Made by a program: the position numbers and the translations under genes
Shown here: piece by piece, positions 3,142 to 47,362 of the stretch
How the letters are laid out: every line of letters starts with the position of its first letter
How positions within the stretch are numbered: the stretch's first letter is position 1
Origin: Rhizobium phaseoli
Lineage (GTDB): Bacteria > Pseudomonadota > Alphaproteobacteria > Rhizobiales > Rhizobiaceae
Reading direction: 5' to 3'
NCBI RefSeq assembly: GCF_003985125.1
Contig: NZ_ML133565.1
Location: 434,001-498,000 of the forward strand
DNA length: 64,000 nt
Notes under the pieces: model-generated
Database searches by the model: none
The model's input: the letters and a program-made list of their open reading frames with translations, nothing else
Told to the model about the DNA's origin: nothing

Positions 3142-6100
3142 ATGGATACGATGAACCCCGGTAACGCCGAGCCACTGCTCTGGTACAAGGATGCGATCAT
3201 CTACCAGCTGCATATCAAGTCGTTCTACGACGCCAATGGCGACGGCGTCGGCGATTTCGCCGGCCTGCATGCCAAGCTCGATCATATCGCGGCCCTCGGC
3301 GTCAACGCCATCTGGCTGCTGCCATTCTTTCCCTCACCACGCCGCGACGACGGCTATGACATCGCCGACTACGGCAATGTCAGTCCGGATTACGGAACGA
3401 TGGAGGATTTCCGCGCCTTCGTCGATGCCGCCCACCAGCGCAATATCCGCGTAATCATCGAACTCGTCATCAACCACACTTCCGACCAGCATCCCTGGTT
3501 CCAGCGCGCCCGACAGGCGCCTCCGGGATCACCCGAGCGGGACTTCTATGTCTGGTCGGATACCGATCAGAAGTTCCCGGAAACGCGCATCATCTTCCTC
3601 GATACGGAAAAATCCAACTGGACATGGGACGCGGTGGCCGGCGCCTATTACTGGCACCGCTTCTATTCCCACCAGCCGGACCTGAATTTCGACAGCCCGC
3701 TCGTCATGGAGGAACTGCTGAAGGTGATGCGCTTCTGGCTGGAAACCGGCATCGACGGTTTCCGTCTCGACGCGATCCCCTATCTCGTCGAGCGCGAGGG
3801 GACGATCAACGAAAACCTGCCGGAAACCCATGGGATCCTCAAGCGCATCCGCGCCGCCCTCGACGCGACCCATCCCGGCGTGATGCTGCTCGCCGAGGCC
3901 AATCAGTGGCCGGAGGACACGCGCGAATATTTCGGCGACGGCGACGAATGCCACATGGCCTTCCACTTCCCGCTGATGCCGCGCATGTATATGGCGATCG
4001 CCAAGGAGGATCGGTTTCCGATCACCGATATTCTGCGCCAGACGCCCGAGATTCCGGAGAATTGCCAGTGGGCGATATTCCTTCGCAATCACGACGAGCT
4101 GACACTGGAAATGGTGACGGATGCGGAGCGCGACTATCTCTGGGAAACCTATGCGTCCGATAAGCGGGCTCGCATCAACCTCGGCATCAGGCGGCGCCTG
4201 GCGCCGCTGATGGAGCGCGATCGCCGCCGCATCGAGCTGATGAACGCGCTTCTTCTCTCCATGCCGGGAACGCCCGTCATCTATTATGGCGACGAGATCG
4301 GCATGGGCGACAATATCTATCTCGGCGACCGGGACGGGGTGCGCACACCGATGCAGTGGTCGCCGGACCGCAATGGTGGCTTCTCCCGCACCGACCCGGC
4401 CCGCCTCGTGCTGCCGCTGATTGCCGATCCGCTTTACGGCTTCGAGGCCGTCAACGTCGAAGCGCAGAGCACCGATGCGCATTCGCTGCTCAACTGGACG
4501 CGCAAGATGCTGGCGTTGCGTGGCCGCCACCCGGCTTTCGGACGCGGCTCGCTTCGATTTCTCTCGCCCGAAAACCGCAAGATCCTCGCTTATCTCCGGG
4601 AATATGAAGGCGAGACGCTGATGTGCGTCGCCAATCTCTCGCGCCTGCCCCAGGCGGTTGAGCTGGACCTGTCGGCCTTCGAGGGCCGCGTGCCGATAGA
4701 GCTGACCGGCATGTCGCCCTTTCCGCCGATCGGGCAGCTCACCTATCTCCTGACATTGCCGCCCTATGGTTTCTTCTGGTTCCAGCTGCAGGCCGATGCG
4801 GATCCGCCGGCATGGCGCACGGCGCCGCCCGAACAACTGCCCGACCTGGTGACGATGGTCATCCGCCGCGGCCTGCTCGATCTCGTCGACGAGCCCGCGC
4901 ATATGCGCGTCCTCAGTAACGAAATCCTGCCCGCCTATCTCTCCCGGCGGCGATGGTTCGGGGCGAAGGACCAGCCGCTGCAGGCGGCGAGGCTAATCTC
5001 GGCCACGCCGATCCCCTTTGTCGACGGTGTCGTTCTCGGCGAATTGGAGGTGGTGCTGCCTGACCATACCGAATCCTACCAGTTGCCGCTGACGGTCGCC
5101 TGGGACGATGCCCAGCCGTCGGCGCTAACCCAGCAGCTGGCGCTCGGGCGGGTTCGACAGGGCAGGCGGGTCGGTTTCCTGACGGATGGTTTCGCCGTCG
5201 AGCCGATGGCGCGCGGCATCCTGCGCGGGCTCGCCGACCGCTCGCGCATCACCGGGCGCACCGGCACGCTGGAATTTCTCGGCACCGAACGGCTCGACCG
5301 GCTACAGATCACCGACGACATGCCAGTCCACTGGCTGTCGGCCGAGCAATCCAACAGTTCGCTGATCGTCGGCGAGGTCGCCATGATCAAGCTGATCCGG
5401 CACATTTTCCCCGGCATCCACCCCGAGGTGGAGATGACGCGGTTTCTGACCCGGGCCGGCTACGACCACACGGCGCCGCTGCTCGGCGAAGTCGCGCACA
5501 CCGATTCCGGCGGGCGCCGCTCGACCTTGATCATCGTCCAGGGCGCGATCCGCAATCAGGGCGACGCCTGGAACTGGATGCTCAACAATCTGCGCCGCGC
5601 TGCCGACGAACTGGTGCTGGCCGATCCGGCGGTCGAACCTGGCGACGACGTCTTCCGGTCGCTGATCAGCTTCGTCGCGATGGTTGGCATGCGACTGGGC
5701 GAATTGCATGTCGTGCTCGCCGGGGAAACCGCGGATGCGGCCTTCAGCTCTGTCGTCGCCGGCGACGATGAGGTGGAGGCGATCAAGAGGGCCGTGGCGG
5801 GCGAGGTCGCCTTTGCCATGTCGAAGCTTGCCGAACGCGAGGAGGATGCCGATCCCGCGATCGATCTGCTCGCCGCTTCGCTTGTAGGGCGCCGTGCCGA
5901 ACTCGTCGAGCTGGCTGGGCGGCTGGCGGAAAGCGCCCGCGGCACGCTGATGACGCGCACGCATGGCGATTTCCATCTCGGCCAGATTCTGGTCAGCGAG
6001 GGCGATGCCGTCATCATCGACTTCGAAGGCGAGCCCGCGAAAAATCTCGCAGAGCGACGCGCCAAAACGGTTCCGCTGCGCGATGTCGCCGGGCTGCTGC

Positions 6101-37884: not shown

Positions 37885-40389
37885 TCAAGCAGCGGCCACG
37901 CCACGCGTGTCCGTTTCTTCCAGCTGGAACTGGTCGATCAGCTGCAGAAGCGTCCTCGTCTCGTCGGCCAGTTCCTTCGTCGCCGCGCTCGTTTCCTCGA
38001 CCATGGCGGCGTTCTGTTGCGTCATCTGGTCCATTCGGTTGACGGAGGAATTCACCTCGTGCAGCGCATTGTACTGCTCTCTGCTCGAGCGGGCGATGAC
38101 ATCCATCTGCTCGGATGCAGTCACCACTTTTGCGGAAATGCTTTCGAGGACTTCGCTGGTTTGGCGCACGACCCGCGCGCCGTTGGTAATCTCCGCACGC
38201 GAGCGTCCGATGAGCTGCTTGATCCGCTGACCGGCCTCGGCGGAGCGCTGGGCGAGATCGCGAACTTCCTGGGCGACGACCGCAAAGCCTTTGCCGGCTT
38301 CACCGGCGCGGGCTGCTTCGATGCCGGCGTTGAGCGCGAGCAGGTTCGTTTGAAAGGCGATGTCGTCGATGACGCCGATGATCTGCACGATCTCGTCCGA
38401 AGCGGCTTCGATCTTGCCCATCGCGTCGATGGCGCTGGCGACCACCTCGGATGAGGAATCGGCCGTCTTCTTAGTGTCGGTGATGATCTCGCGGGCATCG
38501 TCGGCGCAGGCCGCCGACGAGCGAACGGTGGTGGTAATCTCTTCGATGGCTGCGGCGATTTCCTCGAGCGCCACGGCCTGCTGCTCGGTGCGCTTGGCGA
38601 GGTTGCCTGCCGCCAGATCCATCTGGCCGGCATTGCCTTCGATCATCCGGGTGTTGGTGCGGATCTGGTCGATCGTTTCCTGCAGGCGCAGCAGCGACGC
38701 ATTGAAATCGTTGCGCAGCTGCTCCAGCCGGCCGAAGAACGGCGTTGCGATCGTCTGCGAGATATCGCCGCGCGCCAGGCGTCCGATACCCGCAGCCAGG
38801 GCCGTCACGGCGAAATCGATCTGCTGTTCGACCGAGCGCTTTTCCTCGTCGTTGCGGCGCCGTTCCTCCTCGGCTCTCGTCCGTTCGATCTCGCTGCGCT
38901 CCTCGATTTCGACCTTGGCGATGGCGTTGTTCTTGAAGACGCCGAGCGCGCGGGCCATGTCGCCGATTTCATCGGCCCGGCTTTCGCCGACGATCGCCGT
39001 TTCGAGCTTGCCGTCGGCGAGCCGCCGCATGGCCGAGGTGATCTGGGTGATCGGACCTTTGAGCGTGACAGTCAGCCCGATGCCGGCGAGGATAGCGATC
39101 ACCACGCCGAGGATCGTCGTTCCGAGAGACATGGAATTGGCGTCGGAGCGTTCCGCGGCGGCGTTCTGCCGCTGCATTTCGGCGAAAGCCGTCAGCTGCG
39201 ACCACATCCCGTCCACGTCGGCGGCGGCGGCGCGGAATTCGTCCTGGCGCTGCCCGCTGATGCGGACGAGATCGGTGGCGGCCTTCTGCATCTTGTCCAG
39301 CGCCGGCAGCAGCTTCGGTTTGAGTTTATCGAACTGCGCAAAGCCGCCGACATTGGAAATCAGCATGTCCAAGCCTTTTCTGACGGCAGTGATCTCCTGC
39401 GAAAGCCGCTGGAGATTGGCGTCCGTCGGGGCGAGCGTCAACTTCGCCAGGACGATCTGAATCACATAGGCCGAGGTCGTCAGTTTCTGGCCGTCTCTCT
39501 GGCTGGCCTTGGCGCGCTCGACTGTTTTCGCCGTCTCGGCTGCCTTGTCGGTCACGGCTTTCACCCGCCGTGCGGCGACCGCCTGGAAGTCGGGCAGTCT
39601 GGCGATGATCCGGCTCGTGACGTCCTTGAGGCCGGCGGCACTCTCCGCGGTCTGGCCCGCCGTTTCGACAAGCGGTTTCAGAGCAGCAATGGCGTCGTCG
39701 ACGACCTTTTTGGCCTCGGGCGCCTCGCCGCCAAGCGCCATTCCTACGATGCGCTGCTGCCGGGCGAGTTCCTCCAGTTCCGGGCCGGTGATCGGGCCGG
39801 CCGCCTGGGCCCTGTCGTTCAGTGCTAGGACGAAGGAGGTGAAGTCCGAAATGCGCTGCGCGTCAGCGAGCGTGTTGCGTGATTCATCTTCCTGCAGGTC
39901 GGCAGCACGTTGGAGCGCCTTGGCCCCTTCGACAAGATCCGTCTGGGACGATACGACGACGCTCTGCGCCTTCTGGAGATCGGTGAGCAAGGCTGCGCGG
40001 CTCTCCTGCAGCTGCCAGAGCAAATCCATGCGCGTCGAAATTCCGTCGATGGAAGCGAGTGCCTGCTCCAGTTCCTGCTGGCCGCTGTGATCTGCGGCGA
40101 GCCTGTCGAGGCCGGCGTTCAGAAGGCCGCGTTGATCGGCAAGCCTGGCGGCGACGGCATCCCGGTTATCCTCAGTGGCGTCGGCAAGGAACTCGGCCAT
40201 CGCCGCCGACAGGTTGCGAAAGCCGCTCAATGACTGCAGGACGGAGTTGGAAATATCCATCCGCCCCTGAAGCAGGCTCGATGCATAAAGGCCCATGGCG
40301 CCAACCGCCATGATGCTCAAGACGAATGGAACGATGAATACCATCACCTGCGTCTGAATGCGCACACGTGACAACAGCCTTCCCAACAT
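37885..40389 (-). CDS. Methyl-accepting chemotaxis protein with large helical sensor domain
   Basis: This 834-residue receptor has TM1 (15-36) and a periplasmic domain of about 390 residues that looks all-helical. TM2 lies near 425-447 (TTILGVVIAILAGIGL), followed by HAMP (about 450-500), a linker with a second HAMP-like segment, and a signalling domain with the hairpin tip DDIAFQTNLLALNAGIEAAR near residue 700. The periplasmic region is more than twice the usual 150-residue four-helix bundle. No CheB/CheR-tethering pentapeptide is evident at the C-terminus (DTRGVAAA). Start at 40389 (AAGGAG at 5 bp) is preferred over one eight codons upstream. It is a lone receptor with no che or flagellar genes nearby. 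Confidence 0.93.
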   Translation of the reverse strand: MLGRLLSRVRIQTQVMVFIVPFVLSIMAVGAMGLYASSLLQGRMDISNSVLQSLSGFRNLSAAMAEFLADATEDNRDAVAARLADQRGLLNAGLDRLAADHSGQQELEQALASIDGISTRMDLLWQLQESRAALLTDLQKAQSVVVSSQTDLVEGAKALQRAADLQEDESRNTLADAQRISDFTSFVLALNDRAQAAGPITGPELEELARQQRIVGMALGGEAPEAKKVVDDAIAALKPLVETAGQTAESAAGLKDVTSRIIARLPDFQAVAARRVKAVTDKAAETAKTVERAKASQRDGQKLTTSAYVIQIVLAKLTLAPTDANLQRLSQEITAVRKGLDMLISNVGGFAQFDKLKPKLLPALDKMQKAATDLVRISGQRQDEFRAAAADVDGMWSQLTAFAEMQRQNAAAERSDANSMSLGTTILGVVIAILAGIGLTVTLKGPITQITSAMRRLADGKLETAIVGESRADEIGDMARALGVFKNNAIAKVEIEERSEIERTRAEEERRRNDEEKRSVEQQIDFAVTALAAGIGRLARGDISQTIATPFFGRLEQLRNDFNASLLRLQETIDQIRTNTRMIEGNAGQMDLAAGNLAKRTEQQAVALEEIAAAIEEITTTVRSSAACADDAREIITDTKKTADSSSEVVASAIDAMGKIEAASDEIVQIIGVIDDIAFQTNLLALNAGIEAARAGEAGKGFAVVAQEVRDLAQRSAEAGQRIKQLIGRSRAEITNGARVVRQTSEVLESISAKVVTASEQMDVIARSSREQYNALHEVNSSVNRMDQMTQQNAAMVEETSAATKELADETRTLLQLIDQFQLEETDTRGVAAA

Positions 40390-40588
40390 CACCCCTCCTT
40401 CCCAAGAGAACAATCGGCTTCGCGAAGGTCTCCTCGTCCGCTCGAGTCGATTGCATATCTTTCCCGCCCTGACACATGACGGAATGAATATTCCATATCA
40501 TATTAATCGTGAAATATTCGTTTCAAAGTCGTTGAGAGTAGGGTTGGATGTCGCTTTTCCACCGATATCGGGGCGCAAGCCGTGTGGA

Positions 40589-41317
40589 TCAGGCGAAACT
40601 GATTTCGGCAAAGAGCGGAAGATGGTCCGAGGCGACCTTCGTCAGGCGATTTTGCAGGACAGCGGCTCTTTTGACGACGAGGTCGTCGGTGATGAAGATG
40701 TGGTCGAGGCGCATCAGCGGGTAGCGGGAGGGAAAGGTCGCTCTTGGCGCAGCCTTGCCTCCAAGCTGGGCGTCCTTCAACGACCGTGCGACAAGGCGGT
40801 ACGTCGCCGATGACGGAATGGCATTGAAATCGCCGCAGAGAACGCAGGGAAGAGGTTCCTCCATTGCGCCGCGCAGCCAGCCCGAATTCAAAAGCGTCGT
40901 CATCTGCCGGATGCGCTCGCGCCCGCGCAGGCCGAGATGAGTGTTGACGACCAGCAGCTTCCTATCGCCGACCAGGACTTCGACCGACAGCGCGCCGCGC
41001 CGTTCGCCGACAGAGGGCAGCGGACCGGCCTTGACCGCAGACGTCGGCAGCGCCGTGATGATCGCATCGCCATATTGCTCTTCGGCAATCGATAGCGCCG
41101 GATGAAAATGAGCCTGCATTTTCAGCAGCGAGGCGATCAGATGAGCCTGATCGATGCCGCCGGTTCTCCGTCTCAGAACATCGACCTCCTGCAGAGCGAC
41201 GATATCGGCCCCCGCCTCGGCGATAACCGACGCGATGCGGCCGGGGTCGAGCTTCCGGTCGTTGCCGATGCAGCTATGCACGTTATAGGTCAGAAGTTTG
41301 ATCGATTTATCCGGCAT
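40589..41317 (-). CDS. Endonuclease/exonuclease/phosphatase family protein (YbhP-like)
   Basis: This 242-residue EEP-fold protein has the family metal/catalytic motifs: LTYNVHSCIG (N near residue 9), ALQEVDVL (Glu), VVNTHLGLRGRERIRQ, LCGDFNAI (Asp, Asn) and VASDHLPLFAEI (Asp-His). No signal peptide is seen in the chosen reading. In E. coli the homologue YbhP is encoded with clsB and ybhN; here the ybhN-like gene is divergent 123 bp away and a phospholipase D gene lies beyond it, so a role in envelope lipid turnover is likely. Start at 41317 is the best ATG but its ribosome site is weak. It has its own EcfG-type promoter. Confidence 0.85.
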   Translation of the reverse strand: MPDKSIKLLTYNVHSCIGNDRKLDPGRIASVIAEAGADIVALQEVDVLRRRTGGIDQAHLIASLLKMQAHFHPALSIAEEQYGDAIITALPTSAVKAGPLPSVGERRGALSVEVLVGDRKLLVVNTHLGLRGRERIRQMTTLLNSGWLRGAMEEPLPCVLCGDFNAIPSSATYRLVARSLKDAQLGGKAAPRATFPSRYPLMRLDHIFITDDLVVKRAAVLQNRLTKVASDHLPLFAEISFA

Positions 41318-41369
41318 CGGCCCGCTAAAGCTGGTCTCCCCGCGAGAGACAGGACTCGTTCTCCGGTGG

Positions 41370-41394
41370 GGAACACAAAACTCTTTTGATCGTT
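41370..41394 (+). promoter_or_regulatory. EcfG promoter, rightward (GGAAC-N16-CGTT)
   Basis: GGAAC at 41370-41374 and CGTT at 41391-41394 are 16 bp apart, a full consensus match. It points at the YbhN-like gene (ATG 41441) and overlaps the leftward promoter almost completely. Confidence 0.75.
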
Positions 41395-41396
41395 CC
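41372..41396 (-). promoter_or_regulatory. EcfG-like promoter, leftward (GGAAC-N16-TGTT)
   Basis: On the minus strand GGAAC (41396-41392) and TGTT (41375-41372) are 16 bp apart. The -35 of each promoter overlaps the -10 of the other, so the same 27 bp can be read in both directions by the same sigma factor. It drives the YbhP-like gene. Confidence 0.6.
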
Positions 41397-41440
41397 AGAT
41401 GATCGAACCATGGCGCTCGCACTTAAAAAACGGACAATCG

Positions 41441-42403
41441 ATGAGTCTGAAAAACGCAATCTGGAATGGACTGCTCGTTGCCGCCCTTTGTATCGCGGGC
41501 TTTCTTCTCTATCGGATCTTCCGCCAGTACAGCCTGGAACAGATCGTTCAATCGGTCCGCAGCATACCCTTTCCGACCTTCTGCACAGCACTTCTGTTTG
41601 CGGCGGCATCCTATCTGTGCCTCAGCTGTTTCGACTATCTGGCGATCCGCTCGCTCGGCAAATCCCTGCCTTACCGGAAAATCGCGCTCGCCTCCTTCAT
41701 CAGCCTTTCGCTCGGCCACAATATCGGATTTGCGGGGCTGAGCAGCGGCGCCTTTCGCTATCGTTACTATTCCCGCTGGGGCCTGACGGCCGAGGACGTG
41801 GCGAAGATCATCCTGTTCTGCGGCGTCACCGTCGGCATCGGCTTGATCACGCTCGGCGGCCTTGCCCTGATCGTCAATCCCGGTGATGCCGCGCGTCTGC
41901 TGCGAATCGATCCGGCGAGCACCTGGCTTTTCGGTCTGCTGGCGCTCGCCGTGCCGGTCATCTATGCCGGGCTGGCGTTTTTCATCCGCGGCAGCCTGCG
42001 GCTCTGGCGCTGGTCGCTTCAGCTGCCGCGACTTTCGATCGCGGTCGCCCAGGTCGGGGTCGGGACGATCAATTTCATGCTGGTATCCGCCTGCCTGCAC
42101 CAGATGCTCTCGGTCTTCGGCGACGTTGCCTTCTTCAGGTCGGTGACGGCTTACGTGCTGGCCAATTCCGCGATCCTCGCGACACATGTCCCCGGCGGTC
42201 TCGGCGTACTCGAGGCGACGGTCTCCTATGCCGTGCCGCAGGAGGCGTCGATCGGTGCGCTGATTGCATTCCGCTGCGCCTATTTCTTCCTACCGCTGGC
42301 GCTCGGCGCCGCGCTTTTCATCGCCAGCGAAGTAATCTTCCGCCGCCAGTCACGCGGGGCGGACGAGGAGGCGGAAGAGCGCGCCGAGGCCCAGTCGGTT
42401 TAG
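41441..42403 (+). CDS. YbhN-like (UPF0104/LPG synthase TM-type) integral membrane protein
   Basis: This 320-residue protein has about eight membrane helices and matches the UPF0104/lysylphosphatidylglycerol-synthetase-TM family. Characteristic parts are SLGHNIGFAGLSSGAFRYRY, THVPGGLGVLEATVSYAVP and a helix ending FRCAYFFLPLALG. It has only the membrane (flippase-like) part and no C-terminal aminoacyl-transferase domain. Start at 41441 lacks a strong ribosome site; an ATG at 41399 sits too close to the predicted transcription start. Its last 54 bp overlap the convergent phospholipase D gene. Probably involved in phospholipid handling with its neighbours. Confidence 0.85.
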   Translation: MSLKNAIWNGLLVAALCIAGFLLYRIFRQYSLEQIVQSVRSIPFPTFCTALLFAAASYLCLSCFDYLAIRSLGKSLPYRKIALASFISLSLGHNIGFAGLSSGAFRYRYYSRWGLTAEDVAKIILFCGVTVGIGLITLGGLALIVNPGDAARLLRIDPASTWLFGLLALAVPVIYAGLAFFIRGSLRLWRWSLQLPRLSIAVAQVGVGTINFMLVSACLHQMLSVFGDVAFFRSVTAYVLANSAILATHVPGGLGVLEATVSYAVPQEASIGALIAFRCAYFFLPLALGAALFIASEVIFRRQSRGADEEAEERAEAQSV

Positions 42404-43846
42404 CAGCTTGACGGGCCGCGCCGGGTCGAAGAACGCGGTGCCGCTTATCGGCGAAATACTGCCCGACAAATCAACGACAAATTCCCGCAAGCCTCGAGGG
42501 CCATCATTGAGCGCGTCGATTGCCTGGATGATCGAGCCGCTCTGCGCAAAGGCTGCGGCAAAGGTCTCGGTGGTCGTTCCAAGATATTCGGCCAGCAGGT
42601 GATGGCGCAAATCCGCGATTCCGCCGCGATGCTCGTCGTTGGCGGCCTCGAGAAGCATGTCGCACTCCGAATCCAATCCCTCCGAACGGTTGTTGAGATT
42701 GGAGGAGCCGATGCGGATCAGTTCGTCATCGGCAATGATCAGTTTGGAATGGATGAGCACCTCCACCCCGTCGTCATTTTCGGGCACTGACGGCCCGGGC
42801 ACGACGGGATAATAGACCCTGAATCGGTCGGCACGATCGGCACGCTTGAGGCGGCGGATGACGCGGTCGCGATTGCCGCCCATGAAGAGCTTTTCGATCA
42901 AGCCATGAGATCGACGCGTGCAGATGACGACGATTTCGGGGCCATCTTCCTCCTGCAGCCGCGCGGCGAGGGCGTCAGCGACACGAAAGGAGGCAAGATA
43001 TTGCGCTTCGATGTAAAGCTGCCGCCGTGCCATGGCGATGATATCGAGTGTCGAGGCGATGCCATCGCTGATGCCGGCGCGCAACGTGGTCGCCGGCTCC
43101 GTCAGCACGAAGCTCGCGGGGATCTGCTTCAGCGAAACGGCAAGATCACTCGGCCATGTGAAAGGGTAGCTCTCGGCAAGCGGTCCGTGGCTTTCGCCGG
43201 TAGCGCTTTCCCAGCGTCGCCGTGCGATATCGCCGATCAGTCTTGCCGCGTCGCCGGTGACCATTGCCTGAACGTCATGCAGCGGATCGTAGGACACGCC
43301 TTCGGGGTCGCGTCGCAATGCCTCCCTGGCGCGATGTCGTCTCGTATCCCATCGCCGCGATGTCAGGTCCATGCCGCCGATGAAGGCGACGGCGTCGTCT
43401 ATGCAAACGAGTTTCTCATGGTGGCAGCCGCGCACCGTGCTTTGAAGATCGAAGCGCAGATCGATCCTGGCATTCCTAGGGAAGTTTTTCTTGCGGAGCA
43501 CCTGCAGGGATTTATCCGAATAGATCGGCCCGAGCGCCCAGATGAGGATGCGTATTTCAAGTGCTGGATTTGCCGCGGCCAGCGCATGCAGCAGATCTGC
43601 CAGTGTTTCGTCGGATTTTTCCGGCTCCATGCGGATGTCTGGATTGAAATCCCACCCGACGATCCAGACACTGCGCCGTGCCTGCCGCAGCGTGCGCGCC
43701 AGCTCGGCGAAATACTGGTTGCCATTGATCAGGAAGGCCACCTTTTCGGCGCAGCCTTCCAGTTCCTGTTTTTCACCGCCGCTTGGCTGTTGCGCTTTTG
43801 TTCTAAGCAGGTAGGGTTGATTGAGCATGGTTTCTAACGCGGTCAT
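42350..43846 (-). CDS. Phospholipase D-family protein, cardiolipin synthase B-like
   Basis: This 498-residue protein has two HKD motifs: H143-x-K145-x4-D150 (CHHEKLVCIDD) and IHSKLIIADDELIRIGSSN near residue 365. Each HKD is followed by a conserved GG or GS...N (AFIGGMD, IGSSNLNNRSEG). There is no N-terminal membrane anchor, as in ClsB rather than ClsA. It could synthesise cardiolipin or phosphatidylglycerol by phosphatidyl transfer, or be a phospholipase; neighbours related to YbhP and YbhN favour a ClsB-like role. The ATG has GAGG at 5 bp and an EcfG promoter 28 bp upstream. Confidence 0.87.
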   Translation of the reverse strand: MTALETMLNQPYLLRTKAQQPSGGEKQELEGCAEKVAFLINGNQYFAELARTLRQARRSVWIVGWDFNPDIRMEPEKSDETLADLLHALAAANPALEIRILIWALGPIYSDKSLQVLRKKNFPRNARIDLRFDLQSTVRGCHHEKLVCIDDAVAFIGGMDLTSRRWDTRRHRAREALRRDPEGVSYDPLHDVQAMVTGDAARLIGDIARRRWESATGESHGPLAESYPFTWPSDLAVSLKQIPASFVLTEPATTLRAGISDGIASTLDIIAMARRQLYIEAQYLASFRVADALAARLQEEDGPEIVVICTRRSHGLIEKLFMGGNRDRVIRRLKRADRADRFRVYYPVVPGPSVPENDDGVEVLIHSKLIIADDELIRIGSSNLNNRSEGLDSECDMLLEAANDEHRGGIADLRHHLLAEYLGTTTETFAAAFAQSGSIIQAIDALNDGPRGLREFVVDLSGSISPISGTAFFDPARPVKLLNRLGLGALFRLLVRPA

Positions 43847-43874
43847 GGTTGCCTCGGCCTTTTGACTGAAAGCA

Positions 43875-43899
43875 AACGCCCGGGACTTTCCCGAGTTCC
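43875..43899 (-). promoter_or_regulatory. EcfG promoter of the phospholipase D gene (GGAAC-N16-CGTT)
   Basis: On the minus strand GGAAC (43899-43895) and CGTT (43878-43875) are 16 bp apart, a full consensus match, 28 bp before the ATG at 43846. Confidence 0.72.
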
Positions 43900-43936
43900 C
43901 GATCGCCGCCGGCGATGGAAAATGTAAGGAAAATAA

Positions 43937-45187
43937 ATGTCACAGCGAGCAGGCAGCGCGGATCTTCCCCTCCACGGGGGACGGGTGCCGCATTGGCTCG
44001 GCGAGCGGATGACGCGGCTTGGCACGCTGATCACCGAGGCGATCGTTCATCATTACGGCCGCGATGAGTTTCTGCGCCGGCTCGCCCACCCCTTCTGGTT
44101 CCAGTCCTTCGGCGCCGTCATGGGCATGGACTGGCATTCCTCCGGTATCACCACAAGCGTTCTCGGAGCCTTGAAGCGCGGGCTGAAACCGCGCGCTGGC
44201 GAACTCGGCCTGCATGTCTGCGGCGGACGCGGCCAGCACTCGCGCAAGACGCCGCAGGAGCTCGTCTCGATCGGCGAGCGCGTCGGCCTCGACGGGGAGG
44301 GGCTGGCGACGACCAGCCGTCTGATCGCCAAGGTCGACAGTGCCGCCCTTCAGGACGGGTTCGACCTGTATCTCCACGGCTTTATCGTTGCCGACGATGG
44401 TCATTGGGTGGTCGTACAGCAGGGCATGAATGGCGACCGCCGGCAGGCTCGCCGCTATCATTGGCTATCCGAAGGGCTGGAGAGTTTCGTCGATTCACCA
44501 CATGCGGCGATCGAGGGACGGAACCAGGGCGATATCGTCAATCTCGCCGACCGGCGCGCCGAGCGCTCACGGCGAGGGCAGCTCGATCTGCTGGCCACCC
44601 TCGGTCCCGACAGGATCGTCCGTGAGGCAGCCGCGCTGCAACGTGCCGAGCAACCGGAGCCCGAGCCCGCCGACCAGCCGATGCTGCCGCATCTGATCAT
44701 GCCCGCTCATCACGATGTCCGCGAGAGCGATGTCAATATGCGCCGCCTGCACGGAAATCTCGCCGCGGCGGCCGATCGCGGACCAGCTGATTTTCAGGAA
44801 CTGCTGCTCGTTCCCGGTGTCGGCGCTCGCACAGTGAAGGCGCTGGCAATGGTGGCGGAAGTCGTCCACGGTGCGCCCTGTCGCTTCTCCGACCCGGCGC
44901 GCTTCTCGATCGCCCACGGCGGCAAGGACCGCCACCCGTTTCCTGTCCCGCTCAAGGTTTATGACGAGACGATCGGCGTAATGAAATCGGCGGTGCTGAA
45001 GGGCAAACTCGGAAGGGAGGAGGAGTTGCAGGCGCTTAAGCGCCTCGACGAACAATCCCGGCAGATGGAACGCTACGTGACCGGCCCAGACCTCAAGGAG
45101 ATCATCGCCGGCGAGTTCCGTCAATCCGCCGATTTCGGCGGCCGCAGCGTCTTCGGCTGGGAGCTGCCGCCGGTCGCTGACGATTAA
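43937..45187 (+). CDS. DUF763 domain protein with helix-hairpin-helix motif
   Basis: The 416-residue product matches DUF763, a family shared by archaea and scattered bacteria with no assigned function. N-terminal hallmarks are DLPLHGGRVPHWLGERM, PFWFQSFGAVMGMDWHSSG, ALKRGLKPRAGELGLHVCGG and SRKTPQEL. Residues about 285-305 (FQELLLVPGVGARTVKALAM) form a helix-hairpin-helix, the non-specific DNA-binding motif of many repair proteins. Conserved Asp-Trp-His and Gly-rich loops suggest an enzyme active site. AAGGAA lies about 5 bp before the ATG. It is a stand-alone gene, divergent from the phospholipase D gene and converging with a DMT exporter at 2 bp. Confidence 0.87.
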   Translation: MSQRAGSADLPLHGGRVPHWLGERMTRLGTLITEAIVHHYGRDEFLRRLAHPFWFQSFGAVMGMDWHSSGITTSVLGALKRGLKPRAGELGLHVCGGRGQHSRKTPQELVSIGERVGLDGEGLATTSRLIAKVDSAALQDGFDLYLHGFIVADDGHWVVVQQGMNGDRRQARRYHWLSEGLESFVDSPHAAIEGRNQGDIVNLADRRAERSRRGQLDLLATLGPDRIVREAAALQRAEQPEPEPADQPMLPHLIMPAHHDVRESDVNMRRLHGNLAAAADRGPADFQELLLVPGVGARTVKALAMVAEVVHGAPCRFSDPARFSIAHGGKDRHPFPVPLKVYDETIGVMKSAVLKGKLGREEELQALKRLDEQSRQMERYVTGPDLKEIIAGEFRQSADFGGRSVFGWELPPVADD

Positions 45188-45189
45188 TC

Positions 45190-46107
45190 TCAGTGACCGT
45201 CGGGCGGGACGGCTTCGGCCGGCACCGTCTCCTTCAGGTTCTTCCGGTGGAAGATGAAGAGACCGGCAAAGACGATGATGGCGGCGCCGATGACGATCTG
45301 CATGTCGGGAATATCGTTGAAGAAGATGTAACCGAGCACGATCGCCCAGAGCAGCAGCGTATATTGCAGCGGCGCCAGCAGCGATGCCGGTGCGAGCTTC
45401 AGCGAGCGGGTGATGAGCAGGTGCGCGCAGGTGGCGACGACACCCAGCAGCAGCATGCCGGACCAATCGATCGGTGTAGCCGGCTGCCAGTGACCGATGC
45501 TTAAGCCGATACCGGTGGCAAGGGCTGCGACCGTCTGCCATGTGACCAGCGTCGTGTCGCTGGTGGAGCGCAGATAGCGGCTCATGACCAGCGAGAGCGC
45601 GAAGGAAAAGCTGCCTGCAAGGCCGAAGAGCGAGGGAAGCGACAGCATCGCCGTCGAGGGGCGCAGCGCAATGACGACGCCCGCGAAGCCGACCAGAACG
45701 GCCAGCCATCGGCGCCAGCCGATCTTTTCCCCGAGAAAGAAATGCGAGAGTGCCGCAATATAGATCGGCCCTGCCATATAGAAGGTCATGACATCGGCGA
45801 GCGGCAGATAGGCGACGGCGGCATAAAACAGAGCGACATCGCCGGTCGCCATGGCCACCCGCATGAACTGGAGGCCTTTCTGCTCGACACGGAACAAGGC
45901 CATCGGCCCTTGTCGTGCGATCATCGGCCCGAGCAAGATGAAAGCGCCGAGCGAGCGGATCACCAGCACCTGGCCGACGGCAAAGCTGGTCATCAACCAC
46001 TTGCCCATTGCATCGTTCAGCGCAAACAGCAGATCGCCGAGCAGCATCAGCACGACGCCCGTCATGATCAGGTTGCCTGTAGTGGCGACGGCCGTCTTGG
46101 TCTTCAT
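45190..46107 (-). CDS. DMT superfamily (EamA) transporter
   Basis: This 305-residue protein has ten predicted helices in two EamA repeats (first about 15-145, second about 155-290). The EamA sequence flavour is clear in YLPLADVMTFYMAGPIYIAA and FFLGEKIGWRRW. The family exports amino acids, nucleosides or other metabolites and the substrate cannot be read. Start at 46107 is chosen; an upstream reading adds an Arg-rich decapeptide. It converges with the DUF763 gene and has its own 160-bp upstream region. Confidence 0.88.
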   Translation of the reverse strand: MKTKTAVATTGNLIMTGVVLMLLGDLLFALNDAMGKWLMTSFAVGQVLVIRSLGAFILLGPMIARQGPMALFRVEQKGLQFMRVAMATGDVALFYAAVAYLPLADVMTFYMAGPIYIAALSHFFLGEKIGWRRWLAVLVGFAGVVIALRPSTAMLSLPSLFGLAGSFSFALSLVMSRYLRSTSDTTLVTWQTVAALATGIGLSIGHWQPATPIDWSGMLLLGVVATCAHLLITRSLKLAPASLLAPLQYTLLLWAIVLGYIFFNDIPDMQIVIGAAIIVFAGLFIFHRKNLKETVPAEAVPPDGH

Positions 46108-46267
46108 TCTCCGAATCCTCGCAAAACGGCCGCGCATGCGCGGCCGAATGCGGCTTCGACCTTAACAAGGCCGATGTCAAGTGTTCACTTGTGTACAGAC
46201 GGCGGGCGGCGGCCGTGGCAGATCAGCCCGTCAGAGCTACCGCCGCGGGAGATTCGCTGAAGAGCCT

Positions 46268-47362
46268 TCAGTATTTCCAGCTCGTAAAGTCGTCTGCAAC
46301 GCACCCGAAAGGCGCACGATCCTGGCCGAACCGCATGCGCAATTGAATGCATCCCCATTTGTTCAATGGCGCCGGCATAAGATTGTTGATGTCCATCCCC
46401 GGCGACTGAAACGGCGTGCTGGCACTGGTCACATACCACAGCCAGAAACCGACCAAACCGCCGAATATCAAGAGCAGGGTTCCGAAAAACAGCCGTAACC
46501 GCCCTCCGATCGACATCGTTTTCCTGGGCTGCCCGATCAACACCGGCGCGGCCTGGTCGGCGTCGGATCGTGCGAAGGGGGCAAGCGCGAGATTTCGTTC
46601 GGCCTCCGTCAGCGCGAGACGCTGCAGCCGATCATCCAGAAGGACCGGCAGGGCCGTCTTGCCATGCCGGACGGCCAGCGCAACGGCTTTGCCATTTGCG
46701 TCGCCGACTATCAAAGGCTCTTCGCCCTTTTTCATGCGTGTGTAAGCTGATCGACCGGTCCTATCGTTGGCGATCTTGTCGTTATAGGTAACGGAAAGAA
46801 TGTTGCGCTTGCGATCGAAGGCTGTGATTTCGACCGGTATGGCGTTCAACAAGGCCGGCTGGCGCAGATGCCGTTTGACACCCCATATCCGCACAGCGTG
46901 GAACAGTGGTCCAAGGCTCATGCAGCCAAGCAACAGGACAAATGTGCCGAGGGTGATGATCCGGTTCCAGATTTTGTCCAGACCGAGGCTGATCGTTGCC
47001 AATTCCGGATTGTCGGCCGAGATCACGACACCGGTTTCATAATCGCCGGTATGAAAATCGACAAACATCACCGCGACTTCCGTGTCGTAGTTCCGTCCGT
47101 CGTAACTGTAGACGAGGCGCGCGCTACAGTCGGCAAAGAAGAGCTTGCGTGTCGTGCATCGTCCATTTTGGACATCACCGTCCTCGAGTGCCAGAGGATT
47201 TTGGCTGATTTGAAAATCCCTGATGACGCCCGGCCCTTCCCAGATGAGCATCAACACCGTCAGTGCCAACATGAATGGCGCCGCCCAAAAATAAGCTCGC
47301 GGTGTGGAAATCACATCGGGTGCAAGCGATAACGGACGGCTTGGAAGAACGAGAGCGGGCAC
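46268..47362 (-). CDS. Hypothetical three-helix membrane protein (364 aa)
   Basis: Membrane segments are near 24-42 (YFWAAPFMLALTVLMLIW), 131-155 (ITLGTFVLLLGCMSLGPLF) and 290-312 (FFGTLLLIFGGLVGFWLWYV). Between the first two lies an extracytoplasmic loop of about 85 residues with two cysteines (GRCTTRKLFFADCSARLVYSY) and VVISADNPE, reminiscent of DUF3592 proteins. The stretch 170-285 is cytosolic. A second cysteine pair is near the C-terminus (WGCIQL, FGCVADD). A perfect dyad lies 76 bp upstream of the start. Function unknown. Confidence 0.75.
   Translation of the reverse strand: MPALVLPSRPLSLAPDVISTPRAYFWAAPFMLALTVLMLIWEGPGVIRDFQISQNPLALEDGDVQNGRCTTRKLFFADCSARLVYSYDGRNYDTEVAVMFVDFHTGDYETGVVISADNPELATISLGLDKIWNRIITLGTFVLLLGCMSLGPLFHAVRIWGVKRHLRQPALLNAIPVEITAFDRKRNILSVTYNDKIANDRTGRSAYTRMKKGEEPLIVGDANGKAVALAVRHGKTALPVLLDDRLQRLALTEAERNLALAPFARSDADQAAPVLIGQPRKTMSIGGRLRLFFGTLLLIFGGLVGFWLWYVTSASTPFQSPGMDINNLMPAPLNKWGCIQLRMRFGQDRAPFGCVADDFTSWKY

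Follow-up and report, generated by a model that had tools for sequence, protein, structure and literature searches.

Within the window, the whole 64-kb stretch of DNA that was analysed, two genes diverge from a common intergenic region. The leftward gene (ybhP-like; minus strand, 40589–41317, 242 aa) encodes a protein of the endonuclease/exonuclease/phosphatase family (PF03372, 2.7e-22), and the rightward gene (ybhN-like; plus strand, 41441–42403, 320 aa) encodes an LPG-synthase-TM/MprF-flippase-like membrane protein (PF03706, 5.9e-12) that matches MprF chain 6lvf (2e-28), with similarity to the flippase part of that protein. The names YbhP and YbhN come from a first-pass annotation of this DNA; Pfam backs the families only, and at that level the annotation was right in kind about both flanking genes. 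The third cluster member is a clsB-like gene of the phospholipase D family (minus strand, 42350–43846, 498 aa; ClsB model 1e-8, below the cut-off). A one-way EcfG-type site lies 28 nt before it on the same strand (43875–43899), with GGAAC-N16-CGTT followed by TG and not by CC. The same three protein kinds are adjacent in the Escherichia coli set whose order we take to be ybhP-ybhO(clsB)-ybhN; unlike in that set, ybhP and ybhN diverge here and the clsB-like gene, which has a site of its own, lies on the strand opposite to ybhN. The closest plasmid records belong to Rhizobium phaseoli (98.7% identity over 3.5 kb). In R. etli CFN42, the locus sits on p42f, where the ybhP counterpart is annotated as endonuclease/exonuclease/phosphatase family. 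Positions 38000–46500 of the window have no Rfam match.

Between the two diverging genes, positions 41370–41396 read GGAACACAAAACTCTTTTGATCGTTCC, a near-palindrome of the form GGAAC-N17-GTTCC in which both putative promoters occupy 27 bp. The first-pass annotation had seen a rightward GGAAC-N16-CGTT and a leftward GGAAC-N16-TGTT in these same 27 bp, with each −35 overlapping the opposing −10, and both observations hold. On the plus strand, the −35 GGAAC (41370–41374) is followed after N16 by the −10 CGTT (41391–41394). On the minus strand, the −35 GGAAC (41392–41396, GTTCC on the plus strand) is followed, also after N16, by the −10 TGTT (41372–41375). Three bases (AAC/GTT) are common to each −35 and the opposing −10, so that the AAC of the rightward −35 doubles as the GTT of the leftward −10. 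Usual promoter spacing would place the transcription starts at about 41401–41403 rightward and about 41363–41365 leftward. Boxes and spacing are those of EcfG/RpoE2 (ECF15) general-stress promoters, GGAAC-N16/17-CGTT, as given for R. etli, where the promoters read GGAAC-N16-CGTT (PMC3892343), and for Sphingopyxis (PMC7083833). Unlike the usual promoters of this class, two of them share 27 or 28 bp here, each −35 being fused to the −10 that faces it. An EcfG-like ECF sigma factor is encoded in the genome together with NepR and PhyR domains (L249), which counts for an EcfG reading of the element.

A motif match within a single genome is weak evidence and could be due to chance, because genome-wide counts barely exceed those of controls or trail them. 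GGAAC-N16/17-CGTT has 109 matches in the whole genome versus 100 for a reversed-pattern control, and the two-way pattern GGAACR-N15/16-CGTTCC, sought across 60 genomes, has 3 versus 12 in this one. The two-way form was rejected as a common device of this genome on the latter count. In the 64-kb window, GGAAC-N16/17-CGTT occurs three times versus 0.75 expected and GGAAC-N15..18-NGTT seven times versus 4.2 expected. The case for a two-way promoter is therefore made from conservation and not from the match in one genome.

Relatives were sampled through every listed ybhN match with E ≤1e-40 among 120 genomes of the genus, 199 of the family and 249 of the order, together with 41 named loci. This gave 171 loci, or 141 after dropping those identical over 260 nt. 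ybhP is divergent from ybhN in 105 of these, co-directional and upstream in 17, missing from the fetched stretch in 18 and reduced to a fragment in one. The palindrome was sought in the intergenic region and its edges, or in the roughly 300 bp that precede ybhN. All of the 105 non-redundant divergent loci except L155, 104 in total, retain GGAAC-N17/18-GTTCC. Over the same search region, it occurs in none of the 17 co-directional loci, in one of the 18 without ybhP (L106, where no ybhP is detectable) and not in the ybhP-fragment locus (L117), where the rightward −35 reads TGAAC. At the 1e-40 threshold, 168 of the 199 family genomes have no ybhN match. Among the 20 genus labels of the family set that do have one, 11 carry the divergent pair with the palindrome (g1, g4, g10, g45, g47, g75, g84, g90, g94, g106 and g107), a single one (g101, represented by L155) has the divergent pair without it, six have the co-directional pair (g23, g31, g32, g52, g102 and g105), and no adjacent ybhP was found in g22 and g41. 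All seven plasmid loci have the form (R. etli CFN42, S. meliloti 1021, S. medicae, S. fredii, S. mexicanum and two Shinella); in S. meliloti 1021 the element lies on pSymB, around 100523–100550. The first-pass annotation had pointed to other Rhizobiaceae as the place to look for conservation of the near-palindrome, which these counts bear out, and to loss of one half where both genes remain as contrary evidence, which is confined to L155 among the 105 divergent loci.

Rates of change were compared on a tree of the 104 palindrome-bearing loci that was built from the two flanking proteins, with changes counted by Fitch parsimony. Every end column, five in GGAAC and six in CGTTCC, has 0 changes, the leftward −35 included. 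Columns of the left flank (25 columns) have 9–39 changes, those of the right flank 13–35 and those of the spacer 2–22, and 62 distinct spacers occur among the 104 loci. The 104 rows were chosen by the palindrome, so the zero changes in GG and CC are partly by construction; this selection dropped only 1 of 105 loci and made no use of the C of CGTT. The element is far more strongly conserved than the DNA on either side. The earlier view of a two-way EcfG-type element that joins both genes is supported by this conservation, which indicates strong selection; its use in both directions we infer.

The distance between GGAAC and GTTCC is N17 in 73 loci and N18 in 31, and the tree shows 8 switches between the two. 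Either length gives both promoters the same spacing, N16 or N17. This is the N16/17 tolerance of EcfG applied to both directions together and counts for a two-way EcfG promoter. Two inverted half-sites with invariant ends and a variable middle could also be the operator of a dimeric transcription factor, with an incidental likeness to EcfG boxes. We regard this as very improbable. A half-site spacing that shifts by 1 bp in eight switches is unusual for a dimer site and normal for EcfG promoters, the ends are EcfG boxes at EcfG spacing, and five ybhN copies without ybhP keep GGAAC-N-CGTT and not the inverted half. The site is also asymmetric, as the mirror partner of the invariant C is A in 70 loci, C in 28 and T in 6. 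A dimeric operator was rejected on this asymmetry and on the absence of a fixed spacing.

The asymmetry also distinguishes the two putative promoters from each other. Toward ybhN, GGAAC and CGTT at 16–17 bp are present in 104 of 104 loci. Toward ybhP, the −35 and the spacing are those of EcfG and the −10 is TGTT in 70 loci, GGTT in 28, AGTT in 6 and CGTT in none, and its first base has undergone 6 changes on the tree. In Sphingopyxis, TGTT occurs naturally as a weaker −10: replacing CGTT by CATT or TGTT cut output in vitro, and output rose when native CATT or TGTT boxes were converted to CGTT (PMC7083833). For Sphingomonas, the motif is given as GGAAC-N17-20-GTT, with GGTT examples in the accompanying table (PMC6599016). 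By analogy, output in Rhizobium is predicted to be unequal, with a stronger ybhN direction and a weaker ybhP direction, because CGTT always faces ybhN and the weaker NGTT faces ybhP. A leftward −10 that is never the optimal CGTT and that changes in its first base counts against the two-way reading. No second EcfG-like site lies between ybhP and ybhN in any of the 104 loci; ybhP therefore has no other such promoter there.

Only the leftward −35 needs CC after CGTT; the rightward promoter can do without it. The dinucleotide bears on whether only a single direction works, most likely the rightward one, with CC as a preferred addition to the −10 and the opposite promoter as a by-product of sequence. 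The ReC64-like site next to phyR has CC after CGTT in 19 of 28 loci, as do 5 of 19 CsbD sites, which favours such a reading and means that CC can occur without a recognised divergent gene. The always non-consensus leftward −10 fits it as well, as does the retention of both halves in four of five ybhP loci that lack an intact ybhN. Control sites speak against it. An EcfG-type CGTT site precedes the clsB-like gene in 40 of the 41 named loci, and CC follows in 0 of 40 (the clsB locus L101 holds, besides its CGTT site, a second match that ends in TGTTCC). CC is likewise found at 0 of 30 phyR/nepR sites (three of the 30 in L243) and at 0 of the five ybhN copies without adjacent ybhP that keep GGAAC-N-CGTT (L145, L151, L156, L159 and L183). 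The counts for ReC64-like, CsbD and phyR/nepR sites cover those inside the chosen distance windows; a site in L230 and others in L251 and L279 that bear CC fall outside. The clsB, phyR/nepR and ybhN-only controls led us to reject a general EcfG preference for CC as the only cause. EcfG control of the clsB-like gene itself is not general across relatives: none of six Sinorhizobium/Shinella loci has an EcfG-type site within 200 nt of the aligned start.

Gene starts bear on the same question. In 41 of the 104 loci (e.g., L128, L132 and L171), ybhP has an in-frame ATG 8–10 nt beyond the final T of the leftward −10, about where the transcript would be expected to begin, which is a sign of leftward use. 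The ybhP mRNA of these 41 loci is predicted to be leaderless; S. meliloti has 171 leaderless transcripts that begin with AUG (PMC3616915). In the window's own locus, the ybhP ATG is 55 nt past the leftward −10 and ybhP would have a leader. On the other side, 26–152 nt separate the rightward −10 from the downstream position that aligns with residue 1 of the window's YbhN. With these starts, the CC controls and the lack of another EcfG-like intergenic site in all 104 loci against it, promotion in one direction only is improbable in our judgement.

Several loci in which the pair is incomplete or rearranged weigh on the other side. Of the five ybhP loci without an intact adjacent ybhN (L213–L217), only L214 has lost the palindrome. 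L213 and L217 keep it along with ybhN fragments, and all five have a clsB-like gene upstream in the same orientation, as expected if ybhN had been deleted from between. Some of these losses look recent. L215 and L216 also keep the palindrome and count against a strict need for ybhN. In genome G059 (L214 and L218), the pair is broken up: ybhP lies elsewhere, behind a clsB-like gene and without the element, and a 34-residue ybhP remnant remains beside ybhN, where the rightward −35 is altered. When 16 co-directional loci were followed into more upstream DNA, four had an EcfG-like site ≤150 nt before ybhP (L321, L322, L332 and L333). The site in L321 (2489–2515) is a two-way palindrome whose rightward and leftward −10 are both CGTT; the ybhP-ybhN pair that follows it is co-directional. 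L329, also co-directional, has a palindrome about 355 nt before ybhP. CC at ReC64-like and CsbD sites, the palindromes of ybhP loci without ybhN and of L106, those of L321 and L329, and the TGTTCC match in L101 all count against a two-way promoter dedicated to the divergent pair.

On balance, we consider it likely that this element forms a single bidirectional promoter within the general stress response (EcfG) of Alphaproteobacteria, with ybhN output predicted to be favoured. The −35 (GGAAC) and −10 (CGTT) of EcfG are near reverse complements, such that CC after the −10 would create a second −35 facing back, and the promoter's own −35 would double as the second −10. EcfG-RNA polymerase could then dock in either orientation, one at a time, and would transcribe ybhN rightward or ybhP leftward, with unequal output expected from a canonical CGTT toward ybhN and a weaker NGTT toward ybhP. 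A single 27-bp stretch cannot hold two polymerases, and this geometry suggests that the two directions exclude each other. The first-pass annotation had further proposed that the element holds its divergent partners at a fixed stoichiometry; this would be an additional hypothesis, and the conserved difference between the two −10s points to unequal output. Use of both directions by EcfG, their mutual exclusion and the bias in output are what we infer from the sequence and its conservation.

Both promoters could also be real and share bases without any regulatory coupling, the sharing being an economy and the outputs being independent at physiological occupancy. This is a serious possibility, to which we give somewhat less than even weight; it is compatible with the bidirectional promoter favoured here, so that confidence in the one need not be taken from the other. 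Polymerases may occupy the site too rarely to compete, and the co-directional arrangement of ybhP and ybhN in 17 loci means that the divergent form need not serve a ratio. On the other hand, separate promoters would be easy to evolve, yet the overlap is kept in 104 of 105 divergent loci and across 11 genus labels, and the leftward −10 is CGTT in 0 of 104. A more tentative proposal, which we think rather doubtful at present, is that EcfG promoters have a self-complementary grammar, in which CC after CGTT makes a site two-way, and that it is used here as a ratio device with the strong −10 toward ybhN and the weak one toward ybhP. If so, a site for one polymerase would fix the proportions of two envelope proteins at any level of stress. 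Such a grammar, if true, also predicts EcfG-driven antisense or divergent RNAs at the ReC64-like and CsbD promoters that have CC.

EcfG promoters and bidirectional promoters are each known. Conserved elements lie on both strands of one stretch here, as in a bidirectional promoter. Bidirectional promoters based on DNA-sequence symmetry are attributed to Warman et al. 2021 (cited in PMC12340889), in which a symmetric −10 box lies between two flanking −35 boxes, as cited in PMC11661796. Those promoters and this element are alike in having one symmetric stretch and divergent starts, which are predicted in our case. They differ in that no symmetric −10 is shared here, each −10 overlapping the opposing −35 instead, and, from what the citing text says of them, in the ECF-type sigma factor and in the joining of two conserved genes. 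Near nepR in L243, two divergent EcfG-type sites lie in one region (1257 minus, 1267 plus); unlike the fused boxes of 41370–41396, they stand back to back and have no bases in common. The first-pass annotation knew of no described example in this family, and we likewise found none of face-to-face fused EcfG promoters, box on box, in the open-licence literature. In the main text of PMC3892343, none of the terms sought for genes of the ybhP/ybhN locus occurs. In S. meliloti, SMb20091 is RpoE2-activated and without a motif (PMC6180224), and a start upstream of SMb20094 is reported on overexpression of E. coli ECF02 (PMC10880074). Both were set aside as expression evidence, being near the locus by tag number only.

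If both directions fire, the element would be a compact natural two-way ECF-sigma promoter that is conserved across much of the family, and a point mutation in one −10 would be expected to redistribute output between the two genes. It makes testable whether a promoter-sized stretch with room for one polymerase sets a ratio. The ybhP/ybhN pair, and in Rhizobium also the clsB-like gene, would come under likely general-stress control. In maps of EcfG start sites, a partner start on the opposite strand should be sought wherever CC follows CGTT.

The genome of the window has one other two-way palindrome among the sites examined. It lies before a CsbD gene (C7:272421–272447; L212 3022–3048), no divergent or rightward gene was recognised at this site, and it is a candidate source of an unannotated divergent RNA. 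ReC64-like EcfG sites lie beside phyR at 2749 (+) in L249 and as the distal sites of other nepR loci; the reverse direction of those with CGTTCC would run antisense into phyR. In S. meliloti ml21 pSymB (L316, 3437–3487), the annotated ybhN and ybhP starts are 10 bp apart and the element (3460–3487) falls inside annotated ybhP, whose start is probably annotated too far upstream.
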